Origin: an uncultured Bacteroidota bacterium | GTDB taxonomy: Bacteria; Bacteroidota; Bacteroidia; Flavobacteriales; Flavobacteriaceae | NCBI GenBank assembly: GCA_902515395.1 | Contig: CABXUL010000010.1 | Coordinates: 1 to 47,879, forward strand | Reading direction: 5' to 3' | DNA length: 47,879 nucleotides | In this document: in pieces, positions 1-31,364 of the stretch | Layout of the letters: each line of letters starts with the position of its first letter | How positions within the stretch are numbered: the stretch's first letter is position 1 | The notes under the pieces: generated by a model | Told to the model about the DNA's origin: nothing | Seen by the model: the letters and a program-made list of their open reading frames with translations, nothing else | The model's database searches: none | Translations under genes and position numbers: made by a program

Positions 1-377
1 TGTTTATCTAAAACCTTTCTATCAGTAATTACTATTATAGAATCAAACACTCTATCCTTACCATCATTTTTGAAAAGATTGGTTAACATAAAAGATAACC
101 ATCCTATGGAATAGGATTTACCTGAACCTGTGGTATGTTGTACTAAGTAATTTGTTCCAACTCCATCCTTACTGACTTGAGATTTAAGTTTTCTTATTAC
201 TTCTAACTGATGATATCTTGGAAAGATAAGTACAGGTTTTTTCTTCTCAATTACTTTCTTTTTTTCATCACTCCATAAGTAATCAGAAAAGTTCGTAAAC
301 AGAACAAAATTTTCAATGATATCAAGAAGAGATGTAGGAGTAAGAACTTCCTGAAAATAGAGGAAAGAAAGAGTTGA
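1..377 (-). pseudogene. hsdR: Type I restriction enzyme HsdR, helicase N-terminal fragment, inverted
   Basis: The minus strand from 377 to the window edge is open and encodes an internal part of HsdR, the motor and cleavage subunit of a type I restriction system. Visible signs are a segment reading LLDIIENFVLF, then FPRYHQLEVIRK, the Walker A motif HTTGSGKS, and the strand motif SIIVITDRKVLDK that precedes the DEAH box in this family. No start codon or N-terminal nuclease domain precedes it: the frame opens after a stop at 378-380, and only codons from about 353 down look like HsdR. The remaining HsdR C-terminal half lies on the opposite strand immediately to the right. The two pieces do not overlap in protein content, and the DEAH-box part, roughly 190 codons by family comparison, is absent from the window. 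Confidence 0.85.
341..373. other. Breakpoint between oppositely oriented hsdR fragments
   Basis: To the left the HsdR reading runs leftward on the minus strand; to the right it runs rightward on the plus strand. The minus frame is HsdR-like up to about 353. The plus frame follows a stop at 341-343 and is HsdR-like from about 365 (KKELIKWV). The junction carries an imperfect inverted repeat, CTTCCT at 347-352 and AGGAAAG at 361-367, around an 8-base centre. The exact breakpoint cannot be set without the uninverted parent sequence. Confidence 0.8.
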
Positions 378-1708
378 TTAAGTGGGTAGATTCTAATCCT
401 GAAACCATTACAAGGAAATGTGGTATTATAATCGACCATCTTCTTAATACAACAGTTAAATCTATTGAAGGAAGAGGAAAAGGAATGGTAATCGTTCGTT
501 CAATTCAAGATTCGGTGAAGTTCTTCATGGAGATGAACAAACAATTAAAAGATAAAGGTTTACATAATAAGATTAAATGTGTTGTAGGGTTTAGTGGAGA
601 ACAACAAGTTAATGGAGAGAAAGTAACAGAACACTCTCTAAACAAAGAAAATGGGTTTGATAGTAAAGATATCCCTACTGGTTTCAAAAACCCCTTATAT
701 CGTGTTCTAATCGTTTGTAATAAGTTTCAGACTGGGTTTGATGAACCCCTACTTCATTCTATGTTCATTGATAAACCAGTTAATGGAGTTCAATGTGTAC
801 AAACCCTTTCAAGATTGAATCGAAAAACAAGAGGTAAGAAAAGTACATTCGTTTTAGATTTTGTAAACAAGGTTGAAACCATACAAGAATCATTTCAGAA
901 CTTTTATCAAACCACAATTTTATCTGAAGATACAGACCCTAATTTAGTTTACGATATCCTTGATAAGATTAGAAACTACAATTTGTTTACTCCACAAGAG
1001 ATTGAAGATTGGAATAACATATTCTTTACTGAAAATAGAGATGATTCTCTTTTACAACCTACTCTCAATGTTGTGTTAGATAGATGGAAAGAACTCTCTG
1101 ATGAGGATAGAGATTTATCAAGAACTCAATTTTCAAACTATTGTAAGTTGTATGGATACATCTCAATGGTTCATCAGTTCGATAATATTGAGTTAGAGAA
1201 ACACTATATCTTTTTTGAATATTTAAGGAAGAAATTTCCTGTTGATGGTAATGAAAGAATTGATGTATCCGATTTAGTTGATTTAGATTCTTTGAACTTA
1301 GATATAAAAGGAAAATTGAATATTTCTTTAGAACAAGAAGATACCATCTTTGACCCAAATGAATACGGAGAAGGAAAAGGAAAAGATGAAGAAGAATTCG
1401 ATTTACTATCTGAAATCATTAGTGAGATAAATGATTACTATGGAAAAGTTCCTGAAGGAACAGAGGATGGAACAAAGAAACTTCTAAAGGATATCGTTAA
1501 CGATAAAGAGTTTCAGAGTGTTGTTGAATCAGATAATACAGATTCCAATAAAAGAGATAAACTTCAAAACATTATTTCAGATAAGAATATAAAAACATTG
1601 GATACTAATCATAAACTCTACGATTATTTTGAAAAGGAAGATGTCAAAGAAAAGATGATTAGAATGTTTATTTCAAGACCAGATTTATTGAATCAATTAA
1701 GGGGATGA
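374..1708 (+). pseudogene. hsdR: Type I restriction enzyme HsdR, C-terminal fragment
   Basis: This 444-residue open frame is the second half of HsdR. It holds the C-terminal helicase lobe: KGMVIVRSIQ (about 36-45), the segment FQTGFDEP (about 118-125) and the motif VI-like TLSRLNR (about 144-150), followed by FVLDFVN and a charged helical C-terminal domain that in this family contacts the methylase core. The listed TTG at 374 is only a convention: open codons run back to the stop at 341-343 and there is no convincing start. The N-terminal nuclease domain, Walker A and DEAH box are not in this frame, so it cannot translocate or cleave as it stands. No hsdM or hsdS lies to the right, so they may lie to the left beyond the window. 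Confidence 0.85.
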
Positions 1709-1710
1709 TT

Positions 1711-1775
1711 ACCCTATCATTTCCATATGAAGAAAAAACTAACCCCCAATATAAAAACCACTCCGATAGGGGTTT
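1711..1775 (+). terminator. Possible weak hairpin downstream of hsdR
   Basis: CCCTATC at 1712-1718 can pair with GATAGGG at 1765-1771. AACCCC at 1741-1746 can instead pair with GGGGTT at 1769-1774. The two pairings are mutually exclusive. Both loops are long and only three T residues follow, so this would be a poor intrinsic terminator. It sits just after the hsdR stop, which is the main reason to list it. Confidence 0.25.
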
Positions 1776-1916
1776 AGGGAAAAAGTATTTCTCCAGTAAA
1801 AAGAAACCTCATCCTGTAAATACTGATACATTAATCAAATCATGAGATTTAAGTAAAGTATATCAACCCTTCACTTCTCTTTATTCTTATACACTTTTGT
1901 TAATTAACCCCTTAAC

Positions 1917-2093
1917 TTAAGAGTCTTCTTTCTGACTATTCTCCCACTCTATCAAATCCTTTTCTGTGATATATTTTGAATGAGTAGACACTTCTATCAT
2001 TTTTAATCCTTTCGTTCTTCTCCAATCTTCTATAGTGTTTCTATTTACCCCGTAGAGTTTCATTAATCGTTTTTTTGATATTCTTTCTTCCAT
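1917..2093 (-). CDS. Small excisionase-like helix-turn-helix protein
   Basis: A 58-residue frame. Residues 8-30 (RLMKLYGVNRNTIEDWRRTKGL) form a helix-turn-helix and residues 40-50 (KYITEKDLIEWE) match the closing helix of the HTH_17/AlpA-excisionase fold, where a small winged helix binds DNA. Such proteins direct excision of integrated elements or regulate their genes. The ATG at 2093 lies inside the last codons of the upstream gene, whose stop is at 2063-2065, giving a 31-base overlap and likely translational coupling. The family call comes from sequence pattern only. Position near a putative att site supports an excision role, but a plain regulator is equally possible. Confidence 0.55.
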   Translation of the reverse strand: MEERISKKRLMKLYGVNRNTIEDWRRTKGLKMIEVSTHSKYITEKDLIEWENSQKEDS

Positions 2094-2278
2094 TTTGTAT
2101 TTCTTTCTTCTTTGTCCATTAATTCTTTGAATTTCCTCACATATCCTTCCCTATCTCCTTTTATTCTATATTCTTCTAATTCCTTGTGGAAGTTCTTTAC
2201 CATTTTTGATTTTCTTATCAATTCTTGGATAAATTCTTTTTGATTTGGTATTTGTGTTTGTTCGTTTTTAATTCTCAT
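2063..2278 (-). CDS. Small charged hypothetical protein
   Basis: A 71-residue, strongly charged, helix-forming protein (many Lys and Glu, no signal peptide, no membrane segment, no cysteine). I do not recognise the family. It is upstream of, and overlaps by 31 bases, the helix-turn-helix gene, an arrangement typical of small control modules on mobile elements. Its ATG at 2278 is the first in the frame. Support for it being real comes from the coupling and its length in an AT-rich region. It could be a cofactor of the neighbouring DNA-binding protein, but nothing in the sequence shows this. Confidence 0.45.
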   Translation of the reverse strand: MRIKNEQTQIPNQKEFIQELIRKSKMVKNFHKELEEYRIKGDREGYVRKFKELMDKEERNTKWKKEYQKND

Positions 2279-2304
2279 TTTTATACTTCTAACTGTAAAT
2301 TATC

Positions 2305-2421
2305 TTCGGAGTGGATACACCTCACCCTAAGGTGAGGATGATACATTTCTTCGGATATGGAAGAACACCATTGAGAATTTAATTTCTCAATTATCCATTC
2401 CCACTCTGAATGGACATCACC
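2305..2421 (+). repeat. Three hairpins with an imperfect direct repeat
   Basis: Hairpins: CCTCACC/GGTGAGG at 2320-2326 and 2331-2337 (4-base loop); TTGAGAA/TTCTCAA at 2371-2377 and 2384-2390 (6-base loop); CCATTC/GAATGG at 2395-2400 and 2408-2413 (7-base loop). An imperfect direct repeat of the form TTCGGA..TGGA...CACC recurs at 2305-2321, 2350-2369 and, less well, 2405-2421. All stems are perfect Watson-Crick pairs, which is unusual density for 117 bases. The strand of any transcript is unknown. Confidence 0.5.
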
Positions 2422-2684
2422 CCTCTCGTCTGATATATCTCAACATCTGGTGATTAAGAAACCGATAGATTTTAAGTATGAAAGAGGGTTAAGGTTACAA
2501 GGTGAGATACAACAACTACACTTAAACATTTCATATTCTCAGAAGGATATATATTTTATGGAACTATCAATCCATGAAACAATCCTTCCATGTATAAATA
2601 GTATACAATGAAAGAAAATGAAAGAAAATGGAGAAAAAAATTAAATTAGTTAATATAAACCCAATGTAATAAGGTGTTTTATTT

Positions 2685-2707
2685 TGGGTGGTTTACCACC
2701 CATTTTT
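2685..2707 (+). terminator. Rho-independent terminator without an assigned gene
   Basis: TGGGTGG (2685-2691) and CCACCCA (2696-2702) form a perfect 7-base-pair stem with a TTTA loop, followed by five T residues (2703-2707). The T tract is on the plus strand only, so it would end a rightward transcript. The nearest plus-strand coding frame ends about 980 bases upstream, hence the interest in an RNA from 2300-2680. Confidence 0.6.
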
Positions 2708-2781
2708 AGATAAATTAAAAAAAATAAATAATTTTTATATTTTAATATATTAAATATCAATAGTTAATAAAATTATTTTAC

Positions 2782-2806
2782 ACAAGTTCAAATCCTGTCA
2801 TCCCGA
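2782..2806 (+). tRNA. tRNA 3'-end fragment (putative attR)
   Basis: The 25 bases read as the last third of a tRNA: T-stem ACAAG (2782-2786), T-loop TTCAAAT (2787-2793), T-stem CCTGT (2794-2798), acceptor strand CATCCCG (2799-2805) and discriminator A (2806). The T-stem has one A-C mismatch (2785 with 2795), as expected if the crossover lies in the T-loop/acceptor part and the first bases come from the element. Upstream is AT-rich sequence with no anticodon or D arm. An acceptor CGGGATG/CATCCCG resembles tRNA-Pro of this phylum, but the identity is a guess. It sits 13 bases before the 3' end of the next gene. Confidence 0.65.
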
Positions 2807-2819
2807 CTTAATTTAATTA

Positions 2820-5800
2820 TTAATACGTCAGATATAGCCAACCTTTTTTCACTTTACCCGTCTCTGGTACTTCAACAACATAATAATAAGATCCAGCAGG
2901 AAGAAGTTCTCCAGTTTTATCATAAGTACCTGCCCAATCATTCTGATAATTTACTTTTCTAAATACAACTTGACCATATCTATTATAAACCTTAACAATT
3001 GAACTGGGGTACTGTTCAAAGTTAATAATCTTCCAAGTAGATTCTGGACCATTTACACCTGGTGTTAAAAGTGGAGATACAAATATTTGATTATCATCAG
3101 GATCAGTACAACTTGGGTCACCATCATTATCTCTATCTACGGGCACATCAAATGCACTTAATGGATTCGTCTCACACTTTTCTTCGATTTCGTCAGACCA
3201 TCCATCTCCGTCATCGTCCTCGTCATAACAGTTACTTAGTCCGTCGTTATCAGTATCTATTGGATATAAAGCTTTATTTAGCGGATCTGATCCACAGTTG
3301 ATTTCCTCTTCATCCATCCATCCATCATTATCATCATCTTTATCATCACAATTAGACATTCCATCATTATCAGTGTCTAATGGTTTTATCGCTGAATCTA
3401 ATGAATCAGAATTACAATTTAACTCCTCTTCATCTAACCATCCGTCATTATCATCGTCAGTATCTTTACAATTCGAAATGCCATCCAAATCAGTATCTAA
3501 AGGTATAATGCTAGAGTCAAATGGATCCGAGTTACAAGCCACCTCGTCTTGATCAGACCATCCGTCATTATCATCATCTGTATCAACACAATCAGCCTGT
3601 CCATCATAGTCATTGTCCGAGGGGAAACTATCAACATCAAGAGGATCAGATCCGCAATTTATTTCTGTTTCATCTAACCAATTATCATTGTCGTCATCTA
3701 AATCACACAAGTTTCCAATTGTATCTCCATCAGTATCTAATTGATTAGGATTTGCCACCCCAGGACAATTATCATAACTATCACCAATACCGTCTGAATC
3801 TAAGTCTGTGTCACCTACAAAAAAAACTGTGCTAATCATCCCTTGCGTGTAGAGGCTATTTGCTGGTTGAATAGCAGTTATTTTTGTCGAACCAACACCA
3901 TTAATTATAATTTTACCGTTAATTACTTGAGCAACAGATGAATTACTACTTGTATATTGAATATTTCCAGGTCTACTAGATATTGGTGCTTTAAATGTGA
4001 AGTCATCTTCACTAAAAATCTTACTAGGCAGATTAAAGTCCGTCAATACAGTTATTCCTTGAAGAACATTTATAATAATTCTTCTCGTTGGCGCCATATT
4101 GAATGCTGTATTTCCATGTTGTTTTATATCGACTATTATTTCACCAATATCATTAATTTCTAATTTATTTCCTGTTACTACAACACCTCCTGACACATAA
4201 TGGTAATCAATTGGCAGGCCAGAGTCAGATGCAGCACTTAATGTGTATGTTAGATTTTCAGAATAATACAAAACATAATTTAAGGCTGGGTCTATTGTAA
4301 TATTCTGATTGGATTTTATCACATCCATCACGAAAACTGTAGATACTGGATTATAATTTGGATGATCTGCTGCTATTGTTTTAAATGTTATTGTTACTAA
4401 CCCTGTCGAGTTTATACTGACAAGCTTATAATTTCCAACCGTTCCACTTAGTGTTGCAGCTGATCCAGGATCAAGTTCAATATAAACTGGGGCACCAGAT
4501 GGTGAAGCAACAGCAGATATTGGAAATACAGAAAAATCCTTCAATGGTTTCGTAATTGGAATTGTGCCAACAATAATTGACTGATTTGATTTATCAATAA
4601 ATAAACTTGTTGTTACTGTTGCTGAGTCAAAGTTATTGTCAGCGGCTAAATGTGCTGTTAAAATTACTGATCCTGCACCAACATTTTCAATTATAACTTC
4701 ACCAGTAACAGAGTTAACACTAGCAATACTAGGATCAGAGGAGCTAAAAGAAATTATACCAACGTAATCTGAATCAGTAATAGGCATGTCAAGAGTAAGT
4801 TCATCTCCAAATGTTTTATAAATATCTGTCATCCAAGATACAGTTTGGCTCACAGTATTAACATCTAGAGTCATTGATGTTGTAATTGAGTTATAGCACT
4901 GATTTTCTAATTGATTTACTAAAATTGTGGTGCTACCAGCTCCTTTAGTTGTTACGACTGAACCTGAGACAGTTGCAATGCTTGTATCAGTAATTGTATA
5001 TATTATATTTGCATCACTTGTCGAGGATGTTGTGAGAGTAAACGATTCTCCATAATTTTTGGTTAAATCATCCTGAGTTACAATTGGATCTCCTTTACTT
5101 ACCTTTAAACTAAAAGTAGCTGTCGCAGAGTTATAATTTCCATCCTCTGGGAGTGTAACTTGTATAACACTATCTCCAGAGTTACTTATAAGTGCAGTAT
5201 TCGTTCCTGTCACAGAAACAACATTTGTATTAAGCGAGGTAAATATAAAATCTGATCTATTGCATGAAGAGCAACTTGCAGTGAGTTGAAAATTTTCATC
5301 TCCACATTCAGCCTCATAATCAGAAGTTTCTATTACTATATCTGCTTTTTCAATATTTATATTTATAAATACTTCGGCAGATCGGTAGGCACCAAAGGCA
5401 GCTTGAGAAACCTTAACTTGGCATGAGCCAGCACCAATTATTGTAACATCAGATCCTGAAATTGAAATAAACGAACATGACGGGTCAACTTTTTGGAATG
5501 TAATTGCTCCACCACTTGTAGATGTGGCTGTTAATGTGAATTGAGAGTCTGCTTCATAGATTTTTGTCACACTTGTGACAGTTATAGACGGTGTAAATAA
5601 TTGATAATCAAATAGAATTGTATCTACGCTAGTTTCGTCTCCATTTAGTAAACCACCAATAGTTGAGTATGTATTTCCAGCTAGATCAGCTCCAGAGACG
5701 TTAACTGGATAGGACCCTGGGGTAATTGAAAGCAGACTAAAATCAAAAAAGTAAGTCCAGTTGTCTTGCGAACTGGTGGGACTCATCTGTGCATTTGTAA

Positions 5801-8771
5801 CTAATGATCCAAGGGAGATAGTTGGTGTAAGCTGAACAGACTCAGAAAAAGTTGCTGTTACTGTTAGAGAATCAATGGATGTAACTACATTATCAGAATC
5901 ATCATCATATAAAACCACTGTTGGAGTGGTTACATCTAAAGTATATGTAATACTCTCTGTACCAACATATGAATTCCCCGCTAAATCTGTTCCTGATACT
6001 GTTACAGAATAAACTCCATCTGAAGCTGCTAATGAGGAAACGTTTAGTGTATAAGTCCAATTCGAATCGTCACCTGCTACTGACATTGATTCATTTGAAA
6101 TCAGAGTTGGTGACATTGTTAGTTGTGGCGTTCTCATTGACTCACTAAAACTTGCTTGAACTAATACTGAATCTGATAAGTTAAGTAGCAGATCAGGATG
6201 ATTATCCGTTAGAGTTAATGTCGGAGGCACTCGGTCAATTATAAAATCAATTTTATCTGAGCCTGCATAAGCATTATAGTTTAAATCAGTGCCCGAAACT
6301 GTAAAGCTAATTGTTCCATCGCTTCCAGAATATGTTGATACATCAAAACTGTATGTCCAAACCGAAGAAGTAGTTTTAGACAGATTTTGATAATTACTAC
6401 CATCAATGCTATATTTTGGAAAGTCCATCATTGGCTCATCAAAAGTAACGGTGATTTGAACTACATCAGTCTCTACTAATAAATTATCTGAATCACTATC
6501 TAACATAGTAAGTACAGTAGGAGGTGTAACATCACATCGTATCACATATACTCCCCACTGGGGATCAGTTGAATCTGTTAAAAGAGATCCAACCTTAAAT
6601 GAGTTTGGTTCACTAGCTATATTCTCAACACACCACTCAGAAATATCATGATCAAATGCTGAGGCCCTTAAAAACATTTGCCGCATATTATCACGATTTG
6701 AGATATTTACTCTCCATGGTCCTATATCTTGATTGAAAACAGTAGCATCCTCAAACATTCTATCCATTTCACTAACTGAAGAAATATCCCAACCACCAAT
6801 ATCTTGATTAAATGAAAAGGCCCGCAGAAACAAATTCTTCATATTTGTTACCTGACTTACATTCCAATCACTTATATCACCGTTGAAATCAGATGCTCTG
6901 TAAAACATCCCGTCCATAGTAGTTGCACTGCTAGTATTCCAACTATTCAAATTTTGATTGAAAGTCGATGCTCCTTCAAACATTCTATGAAAAGTCTCTA
7001 CCGAGGATGTATTCCAATTGCTTATATCATGGTTGAATCCACTATCTTTAAAAGTACTATTCATGTCAGTGACCCCTGATGTATTCCAACTACTTAAGTC
7101 TTGATTGAAGTTGTCAGCTCCATTAAAAACACTTAACAGGCTATTTACATTAGAAATATCCCATCCTCCAATATCTTGATTAAATGTATCTGCATTTTTA
7201 AACATTTCTTTTATATTGTTGACAATAATGATATTCCACCCACTAATGTCCTGGTCAAAAGATTGAGCGTTCCTAAACATTGCCTCAGTCGTATTAACAT
7301 TTGAAAGATCCCAATTGCTAATATTGCCATTAAAATTTGTGGCACCATCGAACATAATATTCATAGTTGTTGCACTGGAGGTGACCCATGAATTTAAGTC
7401 CTGGTTAAAATTAACAGCATTCTGAAACATTCCACCAAATCTCAGAACTTTTGAAACATCCCATCCGTCAATATCTTGATCGAATGCATCAGTATTTCCA
7501 AACATATATATTGTATTTTCCAAACTTGAGGTATTCCAGGATCCTATATCTTGATTAAATGCTGTTGCAAATCTAAACATGCTTGAAGCGTTTCTTAAAC
7601 TTGAAACATTCCAAGAACTTATATCTTGATTAAAGGGAGTACTTTTAAAAGTCTCTTGCATATTAGTGACTTTTGAAACATCCCAACTGGATATATCGTT
7701 ATTAAAAGCAGATGACATAAACATTTGTTTCATATTTACATTACTACCTGTATTAATGTTCCAGTTATTTAGTGGTTGATTAAAATCCTCAGCAGATCTA
7801 AAAATTGATTCAAAATTAGTTACACTACCAACATCCCAATTATTTATGTTTTGATTAAAATCTCTCGCGTTATAAAAAGTTTGTTTCATATCTAAAACGC
7901 TTGAGGTATTAAAATTTAATGGTTGATTAAATTTTACAGCATTTTTAAACATCCAGCTCATACGTTTAACATTAGATGTATTTGAAAAATTTAATGGAGA
8001 ATTAAAAATACTTGCACCCTCAAACATAGTTTGCATGTTTGTGACAATATTAGTGTTTAAGGTAATAGGAGAGTTTAAACTATTTGATCTAAACATACCC
8101 CACATACTAGTTGCACTTACCGTCCCATCAGCTCCACCCCACTCAACGGGATGGTTAAATGAATTTGCTCCCCTTAAAAAGGCATAAAAATTAGAAACAT
8201 TACTTACATTCCATCTATTTGGTGCAGATGCGATTGGTTGATTAAATTGAAAAGCATTATAAAACATACTACTCATATTAGTAACACTACTTACGTCCCA
8301 TACATCTATATTTTGATTAAATGCCCTCGCATTTTCAAACATTTGCTGCATATTATTTACATTGCTGACATCCCAACTGCTAATATTTTGATCGAATATT
8401 CTAGCGTTATTGAACATATTATTCATATTTGTAACATTACTTACATCCCAATTTGATATGTCATCGTTAAATGATTGTTTACCTGAAAATAAACTACTCA
8501 TATTAGTAATTTGAGTTGTACAAACACAGCTTAGGTCAGTTGGAGTTACAGTTCCAGCGCCCACGTCATAGCTTCCAGTATTTATAACAGACTGAAGCGC
8601 ATCTAAATCAACAACATGGTATGTTTTTGAACCAATTGGTTTAGTGTATCCTGCAGCAAGAGGAGCAGGACATTTAACAGTTCCTCCATCAATTGTAATA
8701 TCTTGTGAAAAAGATAAAAGCACACAGAAAAAGGCTAGGCCAAAAAGTAATATTCTGTTTTTACTCCTCAT
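2820..8771 (-). CDS. Giant T9SS-secreted surface protein with DUF285, Ig-like and TSP3 repeats
   Basis: A 1983-residue exported protein. Order of parts: signal peptide (1-22); about 25 BspA-like DUF285 repeats of about 25 residues (about 88-735), each built on F.QDI..W.VS.V..M..MF..A; three bacterial Ig-like repeats (about 745-1055) beginning with PPT or TPT and ending in a VSG(T/A)DL.GN-like stretch; several further beta-rich MBG/Big-like repeats (about 1060-1640); thrombospondin type 3 repeats rich in Asp (about 1652-1890) that in this family bind calcium; and a type B T9SS C-terminal domain (about 1895-1983: VKVYNRYGQVVF, then AG.Y.K.GELLPAGSYYYVV). The tail marks export by the type IX system. 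Likely roles are adhesion or surface binding; no catalytic domain is visible. It overlaps the PorP/SprF gene upstream by 11 bases. Confidence 0.93.
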   Translation of the reverse strand: MRSKNRILLFGLAFFCVLLSFSQDITIDGGTVKCPAPLAAGYTKPIGSKTYHVVDLDALQSVINTGSYDVGAGTVTPTDLSCVCTTQITNMSSLFSGKQSFNDDISNWDVSNVTNMNNMFNNARIFDQNISSWDVSNVNNMQQMFENARAFNQNIDVWDVSSVTNMSSMFYNAFQFNQPIASAPNRWNVSNVSNFYAFLRGANSFNHPVEWGGADGTVSATSMWGMFRSNSLNSPITLNTNIVTNMQTMFEGASIFNSPLNFSNTSNVKRMSWMFKNAVKFNQPLNFNTSSVLDMKQTFYNARDFNQNINNWDVGSVTNFESIFRSAEDFNQPLNNWNINTGSNVNMKQMFMSSAFNNDISSWDVSKVTNMQETFKSTPFNQDISSWNVSSLRNASSMFRFATAFNQDIGSWNTSSLENTIYMFGNTDAFDQDIDGWDVSKVLRFGGMFQNAVNFNQDLNSWVTSSATTMNIMFDGATNFNGNISNWDLSNVNTTEAMFRNAQSFDQDISGWNIIIVNNIKEMFKNADTFNQDIGGWDISNVNSLLSVFNGADNFNQDLSSWNTSGVTDMNSTFKDSGFNHDISNWNTSSVETFHRMFEGASTFNQNLNSWNTSSATTMDGMFYRASDFNGDISDWNVSQVTNMKNLFLRAFSFNQDIGGWDISSVSEMDRMFEDATVFNQDIGPWRVNISNRDNMRQMFLRASAFDHDISEWCVENIASEPNSFKVGSLLTDSTDPQWGVYVIRCDVTPPTVLTMLDSDSDNLLVETDVVQITVTFDEPMMDFPKYSIDGSNYQNLSKTTSSVWTYSFDVSTYSGSDGTISFTVSGTDLNYNAYAGSDKIDFIIDRVPPTLTLTDNHPDLLLNLSDSVLVQASFSESMRTPQLTMSPTLISNESMSVAGDDSNWTYTLNVSSLAASDGVYSVTVSGTDLAGNSYVGTESITYTLDVTTPTVVLYDDDSDNVVTSIDSLTVTATFSESVQLTPTISLGSLVTNAQMSPTSSQDNWTYFFDFSLLSITPGSYPVNVSGADLAGNTYSTIGGLLNGDETSVDTILFDYQLFTPSITVTSVTKIYEADSQFTLTATSTSGGAITFQKVDPSCSFISISGSDVTIIGAGSCQVKVSQAAFGAYRSAEVFININIEKADIVIETSDYEAECGDENFQLTASCSSCNRSDFIFTSLNTNVVSVTGTNTALISNSGDSVIQVTLPEDGNYNSATATFSLKVSKGDPIVTQDDLTKNYGESFTLTTSSTSDANIIYTITDTSIATVSGSVVTTKGAGSTTILVNQLENQCYNSITTSMTLDVNTVSQTVSWMTDIYKTFGDELTLDMPITDSDYVGIISFSSSDPSIASVNSVTGEVIIENVGAGSVILTAHLAADNNFDSATVTTSLFIDKSNQSIIVGTIPITKPLKDFSVFPISAVASPSGAPVYIELDPGSAATLSGTVGNYKLVSINSTGLVTITFKTIAADHPNYNPVSTVFVMDVIKSNQNITIDPALNYVLYYSENLTYTLSAASDSGLPIDYHYVSGGVVVTGNKLEINDIGEIIVDIKQHGNTAFNMAPTRRIIINVLQGITVLTDFNLPSKIFSEDDFTFKAPISSRPGNIQYTSSNSSVAQVINGKIIINGVGSTKITAIQPANSLYTQGMISTVFFVGDTDLDSDGIGDSYDNCPGVANPNQLDTDGDTIGNLCDLDDDNDNWLDETEINCGSDPLDVDSFPSDNDYDGQADCVDTDDDNDGWSDQDEVACNSDPFDSSIIPLDTDLDGISNCKDTDDDNDGWLDEEELNCNSDSLDSAIKPLDTDNDGMSNCDDKDDDNDGWMDEEEINCGSDPLNKALYPIDTDNDGLSNCYDEDDDGDGWSDEIEEKCETNPLSAFDVPVDRDNDGDPSCTDPDDNQIFVSPLLTPGVNGPESTWKIINFEQYPSSIVKVYNRYGQVVFRKVNYQNDWAGTYDKTGELLPAGSYYYVVEVPETGKVKKGWLYLTY
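3102..3818 (-). repeat. Thrombospondin type 3 (calcium-binding type) repeat region
   Basis: Within the giant surface protein, six or seven units of about 35 residues alternate DTDNDG-type loops with DDDNDGW.DE.E..C.SDPL. The Asp spacing is that of calcium-coordinating TSP3 loops. At DNA level the units are similar enough to give near-identical 60-100 base blocks, so assembly collapse is possible here. Confidence 0.85.
6560..8510 (-). repeat. BspA-like DUF285 25-residue repeat region
   Basis: About 25 consecutive units of 75 bases encode the pattern FNQDI..WDVS.VTNM..MF..A. The units are diverged at DNA level but keep the Phe, Trp and Met positions. The 75-base period is coding, so it is not a CRISPR array. 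Confidence 0.88.
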
Positions 8772-19938: not shown

Positions 19939-20727
19939 TTGGTAAAGGCCAAAATCATAGCAATTGCAAATCAAAAAGGGGGTGTTGGTAAAACAACAAC
20001 TGCTGTCAATCTGGCGGCAGCTTTAGCAATACTCGAGAAAAAAATTCTTTTGGTTGATGCTGATCCACAAGCCAATGCAACTTCTGGTTTAGGTATCGAT
20101 GTAAAAAGTCAGAGATTAGGCACATACCAATTATTGGAGCATACTGCTAAGACTCATGATACTATATTAACCACTAATACACCAAATCTAGATATAATCC
20201 CATCTCATATTGATTTAGTTGCCTCAGAGATTGAATTAATAGATAAAAAAAACAGGGAGTATATGTTAAAAAAAGCCTTGGATCCTGTCGTTGATTTATA
20301 TGATTATATAATTATAGATTGTGCTCCTTCATTAGGATTGATTACACTTAATGCACTTTCTGCAGCAGATTCTTTAGTGATTCCAATACAATGCGAGTAC
20401 TTTGCTTTGGAAGGATTAGGTAAGCTTTTAAATACTATAAAAAGTGTACAGAAAATTCATAATAAAAACTTGGACATTGAAGGACTACTGCTTACGATGT
20501 ATGATTCTCGTTTAAGATTATCTAATCAAGTAGTAGAGGAAGTTAGAAAGCACTTTGGAAAGATGGTTTTCAGAACAATAATTCAACGTAATATTAGATT
20601 GAGTGAAGCCCCTAGTTTTGGAGAAAATATTATTCATTACGACGCTACGAGTAGAGGGGCAAAAAATTATCTATCCCTTGCCAACGAAATTTTGAAAAAG
20701 AAAAAAAAACAAACTGTTGATGGCTAA
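19939..20727 (+). CDS. parA: Chromosome partitioning ATPase ParA
   Basis: A 262-residue ParA/Soj ATPase. Deviant Walker A KGGVGKTT (13-20), VDADPQANAT, and the Walker B/switch DYIIIDCAPSLGLIT are complete. It moves the ParB-parS complex for chromosome segregation. Start is a TTG at 19939 giving the normal family N-terminus; no ATG is available before the Walker motif. It overlaps parB by eight bases. Confidence 0.95.
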   Translation: MVKAKIIAIANQKGGVGKTTTAVNLAAALAILEKKILLVDADPQANATSGLGIDVKSQRLGTYQLLEHTAKTHDTILTTNTPNLDIIPSHIDLVASEIELIDKKNREYMLKKALDPVVDLYDYIIIDCAPSLGLITLNALSAADSLVIPIQCEYFALEGLGKLLNTIKSVQKIHNKNLDIEGLLLTMYDSRLRLSNQVVEEVRKHFGKMVFRTIIQRNIRLSEAPSFGENIIHYDATSRGAKNYLSLANEILKKKKKQTVDG

Positions 20728-21616
20728 GAAAAATAAAAAACAGGCTTTGGGTAGAGGTTTGTCTGCTCTTCTAGACGATCCTCAAAATGAGATCAATTCA
20801 ATTAATGAGATTAGTGCAGATAAGGTTACAGGCAATATTATCGATTTAGATTTAAAACAAATTGAAATCAACCCTTTCCAACCCAGAACAAATTTTAATG
20901 AAGAATCTGTTTTAGAATTAGCTGAATCTATTAAAACACTTGGCATAATCCAGCCCATAACAGTAAGAAAATTAGATAATAATAAATATCAATTAGTTTC
21001 AGGCGAACGGCGATTAAGAGCTGCAAGATCTATTAAACTCAAAACCATTCCTACTTATGTTAGAATTGCGAATGACCAAGAAATCCTTGAGATGGCTTTG
21101 GTTGAAAATATTCAGAGAAGAGATCTTGACCCTATTGAAATAGCACTTTCTTATAATAGATTGGTTGAAGAAATAAATCTTACTCAAAACCAACTAAGCC
21201 AAAGGGTTGGTAAAAAGAGGTCTACAGTCGCAAACTACATGAGGCTTCTCAAATTAGACCCTATTATTCAGTCAGGAATTAGAGATGGTTTTTTATCTAT
21301 GGGGCATGGTAGAGCCCTAATAAACATTGAACAGCAGGAAGAGCAATTAAAAATTTATGAAAAAATCATTTCAAAAGGACTTTCTGTTAGGAATACTGAG
21401 GAGTTAGTTAAAAAACTCAATTTAGGTAAAGAAACTAAGAAAAAATACGCTAAAATTTCTAAAGTTCATACCGATGCTGAAAATGAACTTAAGAAATATT
21501 TGAATTCTAGTGTATTCGTTAAAGTAAATAAAAAAGGTAAAGGTTCAATTATAATACCCTTTGGCTCCAATAAAAATTTAAACGATTTAATTAAAAGAAT
21601 CAAACGTGAAGACTAG
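20720..21616 (+). CDS. parB: Chromosome partitioning protein ParB
   Basis: A 298-residue ParB. N-terminal LGRGLSALL (ParA-contact end), a ParB/sulfiredoxin CTPase domain with NPFQPR (about 52-57) and GERRLRAAR (about 95-103), a helix-turn-helix (NQLSQRVGKKRSTVANYMRLL), and a C-terminal dimerisation part. The ATG at 20720 lies within the last codons of parA. No parS site was searched for computationally. The following DUF5683-dapB-lepB order is conserved in flavobacteria. Confidence 0.95.
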   Translation: MAKKNKKQALGRGLSALLDDPQNEINSINEISADKVTGNIIDLDLKQIEINPFQPRTNFNEESVLELAESIKTLGIIQPITVRKLDNNKYQLVSGERRLRAARSIKLKTIPTYVRIANDQEILEMALVENIQRRDLDPIEIALSYNRLVEEINLTQNQLSQRVGKKRSTVANYMRLLKLDPIIQSGIRDGFLSMGHGRALINIEQQEEQLKIYEKIISKGLSVRNTEELVKKLNLGKETKKKYAKISKVHTDAENELKKYLNSSVFVKVNKKGKGSIIIPFGSNKNLNDLIKRIKRED

Positions 21617-22160
21617 TGTCTTTCTCTTATTTCTATTTACAGTCAATCTGCAACTTTTAGCTCAAGAACTCCCCAAAGAGAATCCTAAAAGCCGAAAACA
21701 ACGCTTGATAGAAGATCCTCTAACTCCATCAAAAGCCGCATTTTACTCAGCAATTTTTCCCGGTTTAGGTCAAATATATATTGGAAAAGTCTGGAAGGTT
21801 CCTCTTGTATTTGCTGCGATAGGTGGATCAGTATACGGCTATGTTTATAATCAGGACGAATTAAGTCGATATAGAACTGCATATAAAAGAAGAAATGCTG
21901 GGTATAGGGATGACGAATTTATCGAACTGATACCAAATAAAAGTAAATTAATTGAAGGTATGAAGTTCCACAAAAATTATAGAGATATGTCATTTCTTTT
22001 TATATTAGGGACTTATATGTTAAATATTTTAGATGCTAATGTTAGCGCGCATTTAATGCAATTTAATGTTAAAGACAATTTAAGTGTAAAACCTCAATTC
22101 AACTCTGATTTTTTAGGCTCACAAACCAATGTGGGATTGAAAGTTTTAGTTAAAATTTAA
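21606..22160 (+). CDS. DUF5683 membrane protein
   Basis: A 184-residue protein with a signal peptide or first membrane segment (1-19), a conserved LTPSKAAFYSAIFPGLGQIYIGKVWKVP block with two membrane segments, and a further segment near 128-143. The GLGQ-Y-G-W pattern is shared with TM2-like and DUF5683 families of unknown function. GTG start at 21606 overlaps parB by 11 bases. Function unknown; its position between parB and dapB is typical for the group. Confidence 0.85.
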   Translation: MKTSVFLLFLFTVNLQLLAQELPKENPKSRKQRLIEDPLTPSKAAFYSAIFPGLGQIYIGKVWKVPLVFAAIGGSVYGYVYNQDELSRYRTAYKRRNAGYRDDEFIELIPNKSKLIEGMKFHKNYRDMSFLFILGTYMLNILDANVSAHLMQFNVKDNLSVKPQFNSDFLGSQTNVGLKVLVKI

Positions 22161-22169
22161 AAGTTTTAA

Positions 22170-22868
22170 ATGAAGATAGGGCTATTAGGTTATGGTCGAA
22201 TGGGAAAAGCAATTGAAAAAATTGCCCTAGAAAGAGGACACGAAATAGTCTATAAAATAGACAAAGATTATAATCACGGTAATCTAATTAAAGCAGATGT
22301 TGCTATAAATTTTAGCATCCCTTCAGCCGCGGTTAATAACGTAATTATTGCATTAGAAAATTCAATCCCTGTTATCTGCGGAACAACAGGGTGGTTAGAC
22401 CATTATAAAAAAGTTACCCAAATTGCATTACACAATAAGACTGCTTTTTTATACGCTTCGAACTTCAGTATAGGAGTGAATTTGTTTTTTAAGCTCAATA
22501 AGACTCTGGCAAAAATAGTACAGAACCAGTCAGATTATAAAGCCTCCGTGGAGGAAATACATCATATTCACAAATTAGATGCACCTAGTGGAACTGCCAT
22601 AACTCTTGCGGAAGAAATTATCGAAAACTCTAATTTGAAACAATGGTGTAAGCAAGATGCTGGGGAAGATGAATTAGAAATTAAATCAATTAGAGAGGGC
22701 GAAGTCGCTGGAATTCATACTATCCAATATAAATCTGATATTGATTCAATAACAATTAGGCATGAGGCATTTGATAGGAGAGGGTTTGCTTATGGAGCAC
22801 TAATTGCTGCTGAATGGATAGTTGGTAAAAAAGGGATTTTTAAAATGGATGATGTTTTAAATTTTTAA
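22170..22868 (+). CDS. dapB: 4-hydroxy-tetrahydrodipicolinate reductase
   Basis: A 232-residue DapB, the NAD(P)H enzyme of lysine and diaminopimelate synthesis. GYGRMGKA (7-14) binds cofactor, CGTTGW holds the substrate-side loop, and HHIHKLDAPSGTA (about 131-143) contains the catalytic His-Lys signature. Length is on the short side of the normal range, as usual for flavobacteria. It supplies cell-wall diaminopimelate. Gap to DUF5683 is 9 bases and to lepB 5 bases. Confidence 0.95.
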   Translation: MKIGLLGYGRMGKAIEKIALERGHEIVYKIDKDYNHGNLIKADVAINFSIPSAAVNNVIIALENSIPVICGTTGWLDHYKKVTQIALHNKTAFLYASNFSIGVNLFFKLNKTLAKIVQNQSDYKASVEEIHHIHKLDAPSGTAITLAEEIIENSNLKQWCKQDAGEDELEIKSIREGEVAGIHTIQYKSDIDSITIRHEAFDRRGFAYGALIAAEWIVGKKGIFKMDDVLNF

Positions 22869-22873
22869 TTAAT

Positions 22874-24577
22874 ATGAATGAATTTCAGTGGATTTTATTT
22901 TTTCTTTCAATACAAATAATTCATTTCTTAGGAACATGGAAACTCTATAAAACAGCTGGAGAAGACCCATGGAAAGCAATTGTACCGGTTTATAACGCAA
23001 TTATATTCTTAAAAATATTACATCGTCCCAAATGGTGGGTTTTACTTTTATTTCTTCCAGTCATTAACATTATGATGTTTATGGTCCTATGGGTAGATAC
23101 CGCAAAACACTTTGGTAAAAACACTCCTACTGATGGTCTTTTGACTATTTTATCTCTAGGTTTCTTTATCTATACTATTAATTACCAAAAAAAACCAAAA
23201 TATATTTCCGATAAATCGATGATCGTAAGATCAACTTTTAATGAGTGGATTGGTTCGATAATTTTTGCTGTTGTGGCTGCAACTTTTGTCCACAATTATT
23301 TTTTTCAACCCTACATCATACCAACTGGATCATTAGAGAAATCATTATTAATTGGGGATTTTCTGTTTGTTAGTAAATTTCATTATGGAGCTAGAGTTCC
23401 CTCAACTACTATTGCTTTTCCAATGGTTCACGACACACTTCCATTAATCAAAACAAGATCGTACCTAAAAAAACCACAGCTACCTTACATGCGACTTCCT
23501 AAATTTCAAAAAATTAAAAGAAACGATATTGTTGTTTTTAATTGGCCAGCAGATACAGTGAGGCAGTTTTTTGTTAGAGAAGCAGGAGTAAAAAAACCAA
23601 CGGACAAAAAATCAAATTATGTTAAAAGATGTGTTGGTTTACCTGGAGATAAGCTAGAAATAAAAAAAGGATTTGTTTACATTAATGGAAACAAAAATGT
23701 GCTACCAGATCGAGCAAGGATTCAACACAGCTATACTGCTTACAGTAGTAAAGGTGTTTCTTCTAGAAAACTTTCTCAATTAGGACTAACAGATTTCTAT
23801 CGAAGATTTCGAATAGAAAATATCACACAAAATAGTTATTCCAAACTTTCACCGTATATAGTTGGAACCAGTGGTAATAGCACAGATAATTTTATAGTTA
23901 TAACCCGAGAAAGGGGAATACCTATTTCCCTGGTCAGATCATTAGGCCTAAGGATAAGTGAAGTACTCGAAAAGTCTAAAGAACTAAATCTAACTATTGA
24001 GGAAGCAGAAGAAATAGAAAAACAAGGCTGGGTTGATAGTTTGGTTCAAAAAAATCAAAATGTAAAAACTCCTAATACTAACTTCTTTCCCAATAAAATT
24101 CCATTTGATTGGAATCAAGATAATTTTGGACCTATTGAAATACCTGCTAGTGGTCAAACCATAGCAATAAATTTATCTAATCTTCCGCTTTATAAAAAGA
24201 TCATTGTAGATTATGAAAACAATAGCCTTAAAACTATAGGAAATGAAATTTTCATAAATGATAAAAAAGTCAATCAATACACATTCTTACAAGATTATTT
24301 TTGGATGATGGGTGACAATCGCCACCGATCAGAGGACAGCCGTTTTTGGGGGTTTGTACCTGAAGATCACATTGTTGGAAAACCTGTATTTATTTGGTTT
24401 AGTATTTCTGGAATTAATGGTGGGTTAAGTAATTGGAAGGTCAGGTGGGATAGAGTGTTTAGCACTGTGGGAGGTGAGGGAAAACGTGTTTCATACTTTC
24501 CATATTTCTTAATATCAATAATAATTTGGCAAGGCTACTTATTTATCCGAAAAAGAAAAAAGAAAAAAGCAAGCTAA
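22874..24577 (+). CDS. lepB: Signal peptidase I with N-terminal membrane extension
   Basis: A 567-residue LepB, about twice the size of the proteobacterial enzyme. An N-terminal DUF5684-like part with about three membrane segments (1-105) precedes the peptidase. Catalytic Ser lies in PTGSLEKSL (about 149-157), Lys in YVKRCVGLPGD (about 250), and the box GDNRHRSEDSRFWGFV near 477. Between the Lys box and the last box is a long insert of about 200 residues, normal for Bacteroidota. A final membrane segment (about 541-560) and a Lys-rich end follow. It cleaves signal peptides of exported proteins at the inner membrane. Confidence 0.95.
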   Translation: MNEFQWILFFLSIQIIHFLGTWKLYKTAGEDPWKAIVPVYNAIIFLKILHRPKWWVLLLFLPVINIMMFMVLWVDTAKHFGKNTPTDGLLTILSLGFFIYTINYQKKPKYISDKSMIVRSTFNEWIGSIIFAVVAATFVHNYFFQPYIIPTGSLEKSLLIGDFLFVSKFHYGARVPSTTIAFPMVHDTLPLIKTRSYLKKPQLPYMRLPKFQKIKRNDIVVFNWPADTVRQFFVREAGVKKPTDKKSNYVKRCVGLPGDKLEIKKGFVYINGNKNVLPDRARIQHSYTAYSSKGVSSRKLSQLGLTDFYRRFRIENITQNSYSKLSPYIVGTSGNSTDNFIVITRERGIPISLVRSLGLRISEVLEKSKELNLTIEEAEEIEKQGWVDSLVQKNQNVKTPNTNFFPNKIPFDWNQDNFGPIEIPASGQTIAINLSNLPLYKKIIVDYENNSLKTIGNEIFINDKKVNQYTFLQDYFWMMGDNRHRSEDSRFWGFVPEDHIVGKPVFIWFSISGINGGLSNWKVRWDRVFSTVGGEGKRVSYFPYFLISIIIWQGYLFIRKRKKKKAS

Positions 24578-25173
24578 TGAACGCTGGGGTTTGTCCTGCA
24601 TATCTTCCTTCTATTAGGTATATGGCATGGATAGTTGCAAAAAAAGAGGTTTCATTTGTTTTAACCAATCATTACCAAAAACAAACATATCGCAATCGTA
24701 CGGAAATTTATGGCGCTAATGGTAAATTAAAACTCACTATTCCAATTTCACATAATAAATTTCAAAAAAATCAGCTAGATAGCGAGGTTAAAATTTTTAA
24801 TGACTCCTCTTGGCAAAGAGATCACTGGAAATCGTTAGAATCTTCATATCGTTCGTCTCCCTTCTTTGAATTTTATGAAGATGATCTATATCCTTTTTTT
24901 CATAGGAGACACGAGAAATTAATGGATCTAAACATCGCTTTGATTAAAAAAATATTTTCCTTATTAGAAATAGTTATAAAATTTAAAAAAACAAATGAGG
25001 TTGACGAATTTTCCGAATTAATCCGTGCTAAACAAAAAACCATTTATAAAATACCCACTTATCATCAGGTATTTAATTCAAAATATGGATTTATCGATAA
25101 TTTAAGTATTCTAGATTTGATTTTTAATGTAGGCCCGGAAAGTAATAATTATCTAAAAAAACTTCAGATTTAA
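24577..25173 (+). CDS. WbqC family protein
   Basis: A 198-residue WbqC-like protein beginning AYLPSIRYMAWI and with the conserved Y-RNRTEIYGANGKLKLTIPI segment. WbqC members occur in O-antigen and glycan loci and may be acyl or aminotransferase-like, but no reaction is firm. Start at the ATG at 24577, whose A is the last base of the lepB stop; this fits the family N-terminus better than any upstream codon. The 3' end is three bases from the convergent endonuclease-like gene. Confidence 0.85.
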   Translation: MNAGVCPAYLPSIRYMAWIVAKKEVSFVLTNHYQKQTYRNRTEIYGANGKLKLTIPISHNKFQKNQLDSEVKIFNDSSWQRDHWKSLESSYRSSPFFEFYEDDLYPFFHRRHEKLMDLNIALIKKIFSLLEIVIKFKKTNEVDEFSELIRAKQKTIYKIPTYHQVFNSKYGFIDNLSILDLIFNVGPESNNYLKKLQI

Positions 25174-25176
25174 TTA

Positions 25177-26181
25177 TCATTTCCACCTTAAAACTGCACT
25201 CACTGGATTGTGATCAGAGAGATTAATATTGTAGGTGTTAAAGTCAATTATCTCCATTCTGGGGTCAAAAAAAATAAAATCGATTCGAAAAGGAAAATTG
25301 GCCAAATTATAAGTCCCACCTAACCCATTTCCTGCAATTGAAAAGGCATCTAACCTTTTATTTTTAATACCTTTATAAATCTTAGAAAAAGCATTATTAT
25401 TTAAATCGGTACAGATTATGGAAGGATGTAAATTATTTTTATCAATCTTTCCAAATTCAACCATTTGAGCTTCTTGTTTTTTAATTACATCAGTAATTCG
25501 ATTAATAAATTTCTGAGAGTTTACTCTGGTTAAAAGAGTATCCTTAAAATTAATTCTCAATGATTCTAGGTGAAGGTTATAAATTCTTAGCGTATCCCTT
25601 TTGTAAAATATTTCTGCATATACAGCACCGTTATTTGAATTTTCAAAAGGTATAAAGCCCTTGTTATAAAGGGGGAATTTAGATAAAATGCTTAGGCCGT
25701 TTTGACCATTCTTACTTGAGGATTGAATATAGTTATAAGGGTAACTTTCAAATGATGGGCTAAATTCTTTTGAAAACTCTTGTAAACATAAAATATCTGG
25801 ACTCTCCTGATTTACGAAAGATAAGATGGATTCAGGAATATTTTCCTTATCTATCCAATTATAACTATTAAATAATCTGACGTTAAAGCTCATCAATTTA
25901 AGTCCCTTTGAAACAGGAATTCCATTATTTGGGAGCTTATAAAGGCGTTCCCACTCAGTATATCCTATTAAAATAGAAAAAATAAACATTACAAACGGCC
26001 ACTTTAGTTTGATAATCCAAAAGATAAAAAACAAGCAATTAATCAAAACAATAAAAGGTACCATCAAGTTTAAAAAAGGATAATAATAAAACCCCCCAAA
26101 TGTGCCCATCAGAATTAGCTGAAGGATCAATAATATAAGATTGATAAACATCAAGGATTTACCTATGAAATTTAATTTCAT
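25177..26181 (-). CDS. Endonuclease/exonuclease/phosphatase family membrane protein
   Basis: A 334-residue protein with three N-terminal membrane segments (about 9-80) followed by an EEP fold: MSFNVRLFNSYNWID, PDILCLQEF (catalytic Glu), CTDLNNNAFS (Asp-Asn), FRIDFIFFD and SDHNPV (Asp-His). All metal and catalytic positions are present. In flavobacteria such proteins follow rhomboid genes; substrate (nucleic acid, phospholipid or sugar phosphate) is unknown. The membrane anchor suggests the domain faces the periplasm. Confidence 0.85.
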   Translation of the reverse strand: MKLNFIGKSLMFINLILLILQLILMGTFGGFYYYPFLNLMVPFIVLINCLFFIFWIIKLKWPFVMFIFSILIGYTEWERLYKLPNNGIPVSKGLKLMSFNVRLFNSYNWIDKENIPESILSFVNQESPDILCLQEFSKEFSPSFESYPYNYIQSSSKNGQNGLSILSKFPLYNKGFIPFENSNNGAVYAEIFYKRDTLRIYNLHLESLRINFKDTLLTRVNSQKFINRITDVIKKQEAQMVEFGKIDKNNLHPSIICTDLNNNAFSKIYKGIKNKRLDAFSIAGNGLGGTYNLANFPFRIDFIFFDPRMEIIDFNTYNINLSDHNPVSAVLRWK

Positions 26182-26215
26182 GCTTTAGCAATTAAATCCA
26201 AATGAAACTCCCTAA

Positions 26216-27076
26216 TCATTTTTTTCCTGCTTCAAAAAGAAAGTCTTTATCCTCTTTAGAAAGGCTTTCATATCCTGACTTACTAATCTTATCTAAAATA
26301 GCATCAATTTTTTTTTGACGTTCAGCACTATTTTTGTTGTTTGGATTGTGATTTTCTTTTTTTTGGGATTTATAAATAGTTTTAAGTTGCTTTGACATAA
26401 ATAAGTATTGCCAAACTCTCTCAAATCCAATTCCAATATCTCGCCCATTTTCCAATTGTCTTGCATAGAAAAAGCCTAATAATGCTCCGCCAATGTGTGC
26501 CAAATGACCACCAGCATTACCATAGGGTATTTGAATAACATCTAGTAAGAAAAATACCATCCCAAGATATTTTAGTTTAACGTTAAAAAATAAAACCCTT
26601 ATTTCTCGATCAGGGTTATAAGTACAGATAAATATAAATACTGCCATCACTCCAGCTGAGGCTCCTATCATAGGGGGATAAATCCCTTTGAAAACCGGAA
26701 AAAGCGAATAGCTCAAAACAAAGATTAAACCTCCAGCAAAGACTCCTAAAAAATAATTATTTATAAATATTTTATCTGGAAATAGGTTAAGTAATAACCT
26801 GCCTGCATAGAAAAGCAAAAGCATATTCCATAAAAGGTGAAAAAAACTACTGTGAAAAAAACTATAGGAAATCAAGGTCCAAGGTCTTGTGATAAAGGTG
26901 TCGAATTTAGGAGAAAGTTGAATCCAATTCATATAAGCTCCTGAAGGTACTTTTAGCAAGAAAAAAAATGTGTTAAGCAGCATTGGTATTACAAAACAAA
27001 ATACGTTGAACAAAATTATTTTTTCAGCAATGGAAAAAGTAGATATTCTGTAGCGCATGTTATCCAAGAAATTCAT
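26216..27076 (-). CDS. Rhomboid family intramembrane serine protease
   Basis: A 286-residue rhomboid with six membrane segments. The catalytic dyad is intact: Ser140 in GASAG and His194 in HLAHIGGALLGF. A cytoplasmic Lys-rich C-terminal tail (about 225-286) ends in DKISKSGYESLSKEDKDFLFEAGKK, a short motif also seen in other rhomboids of this phylum. It starts with a 4-base overlap on the preceding rhomboid gene. Substrates unknown. Confidence 0.92.
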   Translation of the reverse strand: MNFLDNMRYRISTFSIAEKIILFNVFCFVIPMLLNTFFFLLKVPSGAYMNWIQLSPKFDTFITRPWTLISYSFFHSSFFHLLWNMLLLFYAGRLLLNLFPDKIFINNYFLGVFAGGLIFVLSYSLFPVFKGIYPPMIGASAGVMAVFIFICTYNPDREIRVLFFNVKLKYLGMVFFLLDVIQIPYGNAGGHLAHIGGALLGFFYARQLENGRDIGIGFERVWQYLFMSKQLKTIYKSQKKENHNPNNKNSAERQKKIDAILDKISKSGYESLSKEDKDFLFEAGKK

Positions 27077-27813
27077 AAATCCCAGCGGTTATTTTTAAAC
27101 TGATGTTTTTTCCAGTACCACATCATTGCAAGTCCTGTAAGTGCTCCACCAACGTGAGCAAAGTGGGCAATTGGACCAATGGAATATGAAGAAAAGCCAA
27201 AGAAAAGATCAGCCAGGATAAGAATAGGAACAAGTATTTTTGCTTTTACAGGTATGGGTGGGAACAACAACATCAATTGAGCATTTGGGAACAACATTGC
27301 AAAACCAACCAAAACTCCGTAGAGAGCTCCTGAAGCACCCACCATAAGAGAGCGGTAGGCATTGTATGCTCCTGAAAGACTTTTCTCTCCCACTTCGTTT
27401 ATTGCTTGAGTAGGAAGTTGAGCAGTTTCATAAAATTGACCTATATCATAGTCTGACAAACCAAAATCGGTTAGTGAGGAATTAACCATATCTATTTGAT
27501 AGTAGTAAAGTAATAATTGAAGAAAGGCAGCACCTAGGCCTGTTGAAATATAAAAAAATATGAATTTCTGCTTTCCCCACATTTGCTCTAATGGAGTTCC
27601 AAACATCCATAATCCAAACATATTAAAAAAAATATGGGAAAAATCTCCATGCATGAACATGTGAGTTAATGGCTGCCAATACTCAAACTTTGAATTAGTA
27701 GGGTAATGTAAAGCAAACCAATCATATACTTGATTGCCTATTGTAAGTGTGGCTAAGAAAAAAATACCATTAATGATCAGTAAATGCTTTACTGTTTCAG
27801 TGATGTTGCGCAT
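27073..27813 (-). CDS. Rhomboid family intramembrane serine protease
   Basis: A 246-residue rhomboid. Catalytic Ser161 lies in GASGALYG, His220 in HFAHVGGALTGL, and the loop-1 motif region THMFMHGDFSHIFFNM is complete. ATG 27813 shares its A with the mutL stop; a TTG one codon earlier is less likely. A 50-residue loop after the third segment (about 108-152) is longer than in its neighbour. It forms a pair with the next rhomboid and the two differ clearly, so this is an old duplication. Confidence 0.92.
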   Translation of the reverse strand: MRNITETVKHLLIINGIFFLATLTIGNQVYDWFALHYPTNSKFEYWQPLTHMFMHGDFSHIFFNMFGLWMFGTPLEQMWGKQKFIFFYISTGLGAAFLQLLLYYYQIDMVNSSLTDFGLSDYDIGQFYETAQLPTQAINEVGEKSLSGAYNAYRSLMVGASGALYGVLVGFAMLFPNAQLMLLFPPIPVKAKILVPILILADLFFGFSSYSIGPIAHFAHVGGALTGLAMMWYWKKHQFKNNRWDL

Positions 27814-29600: not shown

Positions 29601-29893
29601 TAATTAAAAACAGTAAAAATGGAAAAATCAAAATCTAAAATATAAAGGAATAATAGTAATAAACAGGATACTATAATTAATAATCTAACAGAGAGTGCTC
29701 GGTTACTGCGAATTCTCATTTTCAATCTTGCCTCTTTCCATTGGTGACCCAAATCATTCTTATTGTAAGTATCTCGGTATTTTGAAAACTTAGAATCAAA
29801 ATCATAAAGGTTCCCCTGGTCTTTACCTTTAAAATATCTAGGGGTATAATTAAATCTACGGTTTTTTTTAAGTTTAAAAATGCTGACTTTCAT
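29600..29893 (-). CDS. Conserved flavobacterial membrane protein of unknown function
   Basis: A 97-residue protein with a basic, Tyr-rich N-terminal part (FNYTPRYFKG, residues about 14-23) and one C-terminal membrane segment (about 70-90). It is placed between ribH and mutL, the usual site of a small flavobacterial protein that databases sometimes mislabel as riboflavin synthase subunit beta; nothing here resembles riboflavin synthase. Function unknown. It is preceded by a good promoter (29934-29963) and its stop overlaps the mutL start by one base. Confidence 0.75.
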   Translation of the reverse strand: MKVSIFKLKKNRRFNYTPRYFKGKDQGNLYDFDSKFSKYRDTYNKNDLGHQWKEARLKMRIRSNRALSVRLLIIVSCLLLLFLYILDFDFSIFTVFN

Positions 29894-29933
29894 GATTAAT
29901 CAAAAAGTTGAAATATTGTATAAGATGCTATAT

Positions 29934-29963
29934 CAAATTTAACTAAAGCAGCTTAAACTGCAA
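29934..29963 (-). promoter_or_regulatory. Promoter of the mutL-rhomboid operon
   Basis: On the minus strand TTG (29961-29963), 19 bases, then TAAATTTG (29934-29941). Both boxes and the spacing match the Bacteroidota consensus exactly. It lies in the 102-base gap after ribH and would start transcription about 35 bases before the ATG at 29893. Confidence 0.6.
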
Positions 29964-29995
29964 TCACAGTTAGAAATTAATAAGTAGAAAACAAG

Positions 29996-31233: not shown

Positions 31234-31251
31234 CTATGATTTTTAGAATTT

Positions 31252-31282
31252 CAAAATTAATCTTTTTTAGACCAATACCAAA
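31252..31282 (-). promoter_or_regulatory. Promoter of the TPR-ribH operon
   Basis: On the minus strand TTTG (31279-31282), 19 bases, TAATTTTG (31252-31259): a full match to TTTG-N19-TAnnTTTG. Transcription would start near 31245, about 12 bases before the ATG at 31233. Confidence 0.65.
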
Positions 31283-31350
31283 AACTGAATAAATAATGAA
31301 AAACAATCAATATTGTAAGTCTAAAGTTATTTTACCTTTCAGAGGTAGAT

Positions 31351-31358: not shown

Positions 31359-31364
31359 TATTAA

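Follow-up and report, generated by a model that had tools for sequence, protein, structure and literature searches.

The type I restriction gene hsdR at the start of the analysed stretch of DNA (47,879 bp, hereafter the window) is split into two pieces on opposite strands, and the sequence argues strongly, although short of proof, that this split is very probably an artefact of DNA amplification rather than an on/off switch. The form of the joint and its position at a contig end support an artefact. The strongest evidence is a control within the same assembly: two other contig ends carry the same kind of false inverted joint, which makes amplification the most likely source of the split. Against this reading stands the fact that a local inversion would give the same appearance at this one joint. 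In the cell, the gene was probably an ordinary intact hsdR located on an island at a tRNA-Pro gene.

Two opposed hsdR pieces at a contig end

The window is the complete contig C10 of a 70-contig draft assembly (1,673,978 bp, 67.93% complete, contamination 0). C10 is covered by the window from end to end, with the joint 350 bp from its start, so the inverted tail constitutes the contig end, and the leftward continuation predicted by the first-pass annotation would lie beyond the first base. The features of this region are listed in Table 1.

Table 1. Features of the left end of contig C10, in window coordinates.
Feature	Position	Strand	Basis
Inverted tail: antisense to hsdR codons ~245-360, start of the ATPase part	1..350	-	DNA and amino acid match to L010; SWI2_SNF2 and ResIII
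Joint with ~7-9 bp microhomology	343..352	.	Fit of left and right sources to relatives
C-terminal part of hsdR: sense to codons ~545-998, to the stop	344..1708	+	DNA match to L010; T1R_D3-like; ORF 374-1708
Two small island ORFs	1917-2093 and 2063-2278	-	ORF list
Last 25 bp of tRNA-Pro(ggg), interpreted as the island's right boundary	2783..2807	+	Start of G006 collinearity; letter comparison

The minus-strand frame that ends at window position 3 (P0001, 122 aa) matched the Pfam domains SWI2_SNF2 and ResIII, and contains the sequence TGSGKS, which we take to be the Walker A motif. The plus-strand ORF (444 aa) matched a T1R_D3-like domain of type I R subunits; thus the ATPase and T1R_D3 domains of a type I HsdR are both present, on separate pieces. 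Relative to the HsdR of L010, which is intact at 998 aa, the left piece covered residues 243-360 (95% amino acid identity) and the right piece residues 549-997 (90%), with zero residues common to both. At the DNA level, window 1-350 corresponded to the minus strand of L010 5420-5071 (92% identity) and window 344-1696 to the plus strand of L010 5971-7323 (86%), and the identities to L009 were 76% for the left piece and 79% for the right one. The L010 alignment and the Pfam domains thus bear out the first-pass annotation, which had described two back-to-back hsdR fragments in opposite orientation without overlap in content. Of the breakpoint codons that it proposed, ~250 and ~545, the right one holds (~544-545) and the left one moves to ~245.

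Both frames are open, and dN/dS against L010 was ~0.07 for the left piece and ~0.09 for the right piece. This constraint indicates that hsdR was working until recently or still is, and an old pseudogene was set aside because the frames are open as well as constrained.

Intact hsdR in related genomes

The hsdR gene was found intact, on a single strand and in the operon order M-S-R, in L010 (AG-915-O22), L009 (AG-319-P13) and G358, where it encodes 998-999 aa. The names with the AG- prefix of L009 and L010 are presumably single-cell names, and the records are titled MAG. The identities of the M, S and R proteins of the L010 operon were backed by domain matches, and the right piece shared 83% amino acid identity with L009 and 72% with G358. 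These type I hsdR genes of marine Bacteroidetes are the same gene as the one in the window, but they are intact, whereas here it consists of two opposed pieces. In 33 other genomes of the family, the frame around the match to the right piece measured 984-1057 aa in 34/34 matches, one of them with a stop. L011 was rejected as informative on the joint: only the C-terminal end of hsdR is present, at a contig edge. None of the 21 same-genus genomes had a match to the left piece at an E value of 0.001, and no same-species genome carrying this hsdR was found. No relative of the right piece was found among viral contigs.

Missing parts of the operon

The assembly was searched for the remaining parts of the operon. 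Neither the N-terminal half of hsdR nor a second copy of the gene was found with the L010 HsdR as query, which did recover the two known pieces. The HSDR_N domain, present in L010, was not found in this 68%-complete assembly; hsdM was not found with two HsdM queries, run without a positive control for hsdM, and hsdS had no match in the 1.26 Mb searched, from which 410,466 bp in the central parts of the ten longest contigs apart from C10 were absent. Because the draft is only 68% complete, the missing hsdR N-terminus and hsdM are explained under any reading of the split.

An island at the 3' end of a tRNA gene

Collinearity with G019 and with G006 starts at window 2783; G006 belongs to the same genus and shares 96% identity over the 12 kb of window 20,000-32,000. 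The tRNA-Pro(ggg) gene is whole in G006 (L133 19283-19357), while only the 25-bp stub is found in C10. Since collinearity starts inside this stub, the restriction-modification genes appear to occupy an island inserted at the 3' end of tRNA-Pro(ggg), spanning window 1-2807. Its left part, which presumably holds hsdM, hsdS and the N-terminus of hsdR, is unassembled. The small contig C64 ends ~0.5 kb before tRNA-Pro on the G006 map. Next to hsdR, window 1967-2096 resembles the DNA downstream of hsdR in G358, with a 74% DNA match to L013. Of the two small ORFs (58 and 71 aa), Pfam was run on the 71-aa one, which had no match. Beyond the tRNA stub, the minus strand of window 2820-8771 encodes a protein of 1983 aa. 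It carries DUF285 in nine stretches, together with TSP3 repeats of the bacterial type and a CHU_C type IX secretion signal domain, and from these predicted domains it is probably a secreted surface protein.

Features of the joint

The left source fits the window up to position 350 (L010, L013) or 352 (L009), and the right source from position 343 or 344. The overlap common to both sources therefore ranges from GAACTTC to GAACTTCCT (window 344-350 to 344-352), that is, ~7-9 bp depending on the relative used. The first-pass annotation had reported a short inverted repeat at the junction; a short shared stretch is indeed present, although it is better called a stretch of ~7-9 bp that fits both sources. 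Among 200,000 random inverted joints drawn in the L010 gene, only 0.12% shared at least 7 bases, so the overlap exceeds chance and base pairing probably helped to make the joint. This would be true of mispriming in the tube and of rearrangement in the cell alike.

In the intact relatives L009, L010 and G358 the two breakpoints lie 898-900 bp apart. The joint therefore connects nearby (<10 kb) inverted segments and leaves out the intervening stretch, as is characteristic of chimeras formed during multiple displacement amplification (MDA). Its ~7-9 bp fall within the 2-21 complementary bases of such chimeras, a length judged here from relatives since the native left source is absent from the assembly.

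In the chimera counts given by Lasken and Stockwell 2007 (PMC1855051), 406 of 475 MDA chimeras were inverted, 337 of these 406 inversions spanned <10 kb, complementary bases were present at 93.5% of the inverted joints <10 kb, and about one chimera occurred per 22 kb of MDA product. The chimeras of that account resemble the hsdR joint in being inverted, with an intervening deletion, over <10 kb and with few complementary bases; they differ in that they were seen in single reads, whereas the hsdR joint lies in an assembled contig end of a genome whose MDA origin is presumed. As a point of comparison, the benchmark cited for single-cell genomes of the GORG-Tropics set is 1.5 misassemblies per 100 kb (PMC11247762), a figure that applies to that set; the same source describes little chimerism in those genomes, in the sense of mixing of organisms.

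Inverted joints at other contig ends

Given this profile of MDA chimeras, the same assembly (G000) was checked for further inverted joints. Both ends of every other contig were compared with ~760 kb of G006, and an end was assessable if it aligned to G006 up to its last 50 bases, which was the case for 38 of 140 ends. Matches with <85% identity or <60 bp and matches to G019 were dropped, as were those <200 bp when joints were described in detail, and only joints with both pieces on one G006 stretch were judged. The hsdR end is outside the 38 assessable ends because G006 lacks the island.

Inverted tails were found at two of the 38 ends, the 5' end of C1 and the 3' end of C39. The C1 tail (L033, G000:C1 1-1048) comprises 1,048 bp, with the joint at 1031-1048 and ~9 shared bases as judged by eye; its breakpoints are 3,595 bp apart in G006, so that the joint links two genes separated there by ~3.6 kb. 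The C39 tail (L070, G000:C39 9152-9361) comprises 210 bp, with 2-3 shared bases, also by eye, and breakpoints 1,883 bp apart in G006. All four breakpoints are within frames that are open in G006 (1147, 833, 191 and 274 codons, stop to stop).

The two joints are private to this assembly among 21 same-genus genomes. For C1, both pieces were on one contig in 18 of the 21 genomes, all 18 with the normal order (opposite match orientations), while two genomes had only the tail and one had the pieces on different contigs. For C39, both pieces were on one contig in 16 of the 21, again all in normal order; two had only the main piece, if a single match of 28 bp is disregarded, two had only the tail and one had neither. 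No match in these genomes spanned either joint. Further joints of the chimeric form are thus present in the same assembly, at 2/38 assessable ends, although by this same count the large majority of ends are free of them.

Just one more inverted flag arose in the 408,156 bp of aligned blocks. It came from two short C47 matches (68 and 77 bp) separated by 61 kb, and was set aside as a repeat. Two of the 38 assessable ends (C52 3' and C63 3') fall in repeats. A dispersed repeat family with matches of ~25-340 bp in both orientations is common to C23, C47, C50, C52 and C63 (L054, L078, L081, L083 and L094, respectively), and may break the assembly at these contigs. Comparison of the contig ends with the assembly itself returned only repeat-family and short matches and no self-inverted tail, which neither supports nor refutes a chimera. 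In the same alignments, a stretch of ~7.9 kb (G000:C4 74523-82390) was seen to separate two blocks that are directly adjacent in G006 (gap 0 there), representing either an insertion in this assembly or a deletion in G006.

Proposed origin of the joint

From the three joints we infer that the genome was amplified by single-cell MDA. The geometry, spacing and microhomology of the hsdR joint, together with its end position and the two sister joints, are compatible with the following strand switch. The cell would have carried an intact type I hsdR of ~998 codons as the last gene of an hsdM-hsdS-hsdR island at the tRNA-Pro gene. During strand-displacement whole-genome amplification, the 3' end of an antisense hsdR copy may have been displaced and, by pairing over ~7-9 bases, annealed to another displaced strand of like polarity at a distance of 900 bp. 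Extension of the annealed 3' end would have placed codons ~245-360, inverted, onto codon ~545 onward, with the stretch between them omitted; either breakpoint could have been the primer, as the sequence does not distinguish between them. With poor coverage here, the assembler would have retained the chimera as the final 350 bp of the contig.

Alternative explanations

The first-pass annotation had considered the geometry compatible with both an intragenic inversion and an MDA chimera, with which we agree. Of the two readings that it offered, the MDA chimera is backed by the private inverted joints at two other contig ends, and the inversion switch is not supported, with proof lacking for either.

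Such a switch would be a programmed intragenic inversion, in which inverted repeats flank the central ~0.9 kb of hsdR and a recombinase turns this segment around, so that restriction alternates between off and on and the methylase remains active throughout. The geometry and spacing fit, short complementary stretches are present at the breakpoints, and the open, constrained frames of the two pieces are what a gene with intermittent activity should show. However, no conserved bounding inverted repeats were found in L009, L010 and G358: perfect inverted repeats located no more than 60 bp from the breakpoints reached at most 8, 6 and 9 bp, respectively, all of them different, against a null median of 7. 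In addition, the gene is uninverted in all three of these relatives, the assembly yielded no N-terminal piece, and the joint is 350 bp from a contig end in an assembly with two other such joints. We therefore regard a programmed inversion as very unlikely. Invertible type I loci are reportedly present in Streptococcus pneumoniae, where hsdS undergoes inversions. The likeness lies in the rearrangement of type I restriction-modification genes by inversion; there, however, hsdS swaps target domains, whereas in this contig it is hsdR that is interrupted, and the cut lies at a contig end, between breakpoints with no conserved inverted repeats. A literature search for intragenic invertons in Bacteroid- found nothing, and we do not claim that an inversion of hsdR would be new to the literature.

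A recent accidental inversion, or another inverted rearrangement, could also have broken hsdR in the chromosome of this one cell. With two open pieces, the break could only have happened recently, and, since the left piece has no match in the 21 same-genus genomes, no close relative can show the intact order. The contig-end position and the two sister joints speak against this event, which we rate as slimmer still in probability.

Origin of the tail in a different molecule, either a further copy of hsdR or contaminating DNA, is the least credible explanation and extremely improbable: the left piece is nearer to L010 than the right piece is, but this order is reversed against L009, the assembly yielded each piece only once, their contents are distinct, and its contamination is given as 0.

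Implications

The split hsdR is most likely not a real feature. A real reversible inversion in a type I hsdR that removes the ATPase part, with restriction off and methylation on, has only a very small chance of being present here; if true, it would be an unusual route to switching restriction off with methylation kept, in an island of marine Bacteroidota. The main value of the finding is a warning that draft contigs of uncultured bacteria may end in short inverted tails that mimic intragenic inversions, and scans for DNA switches in such genomes should exclude joints less than ~1 kb from a contig end, or compare them with relatives.
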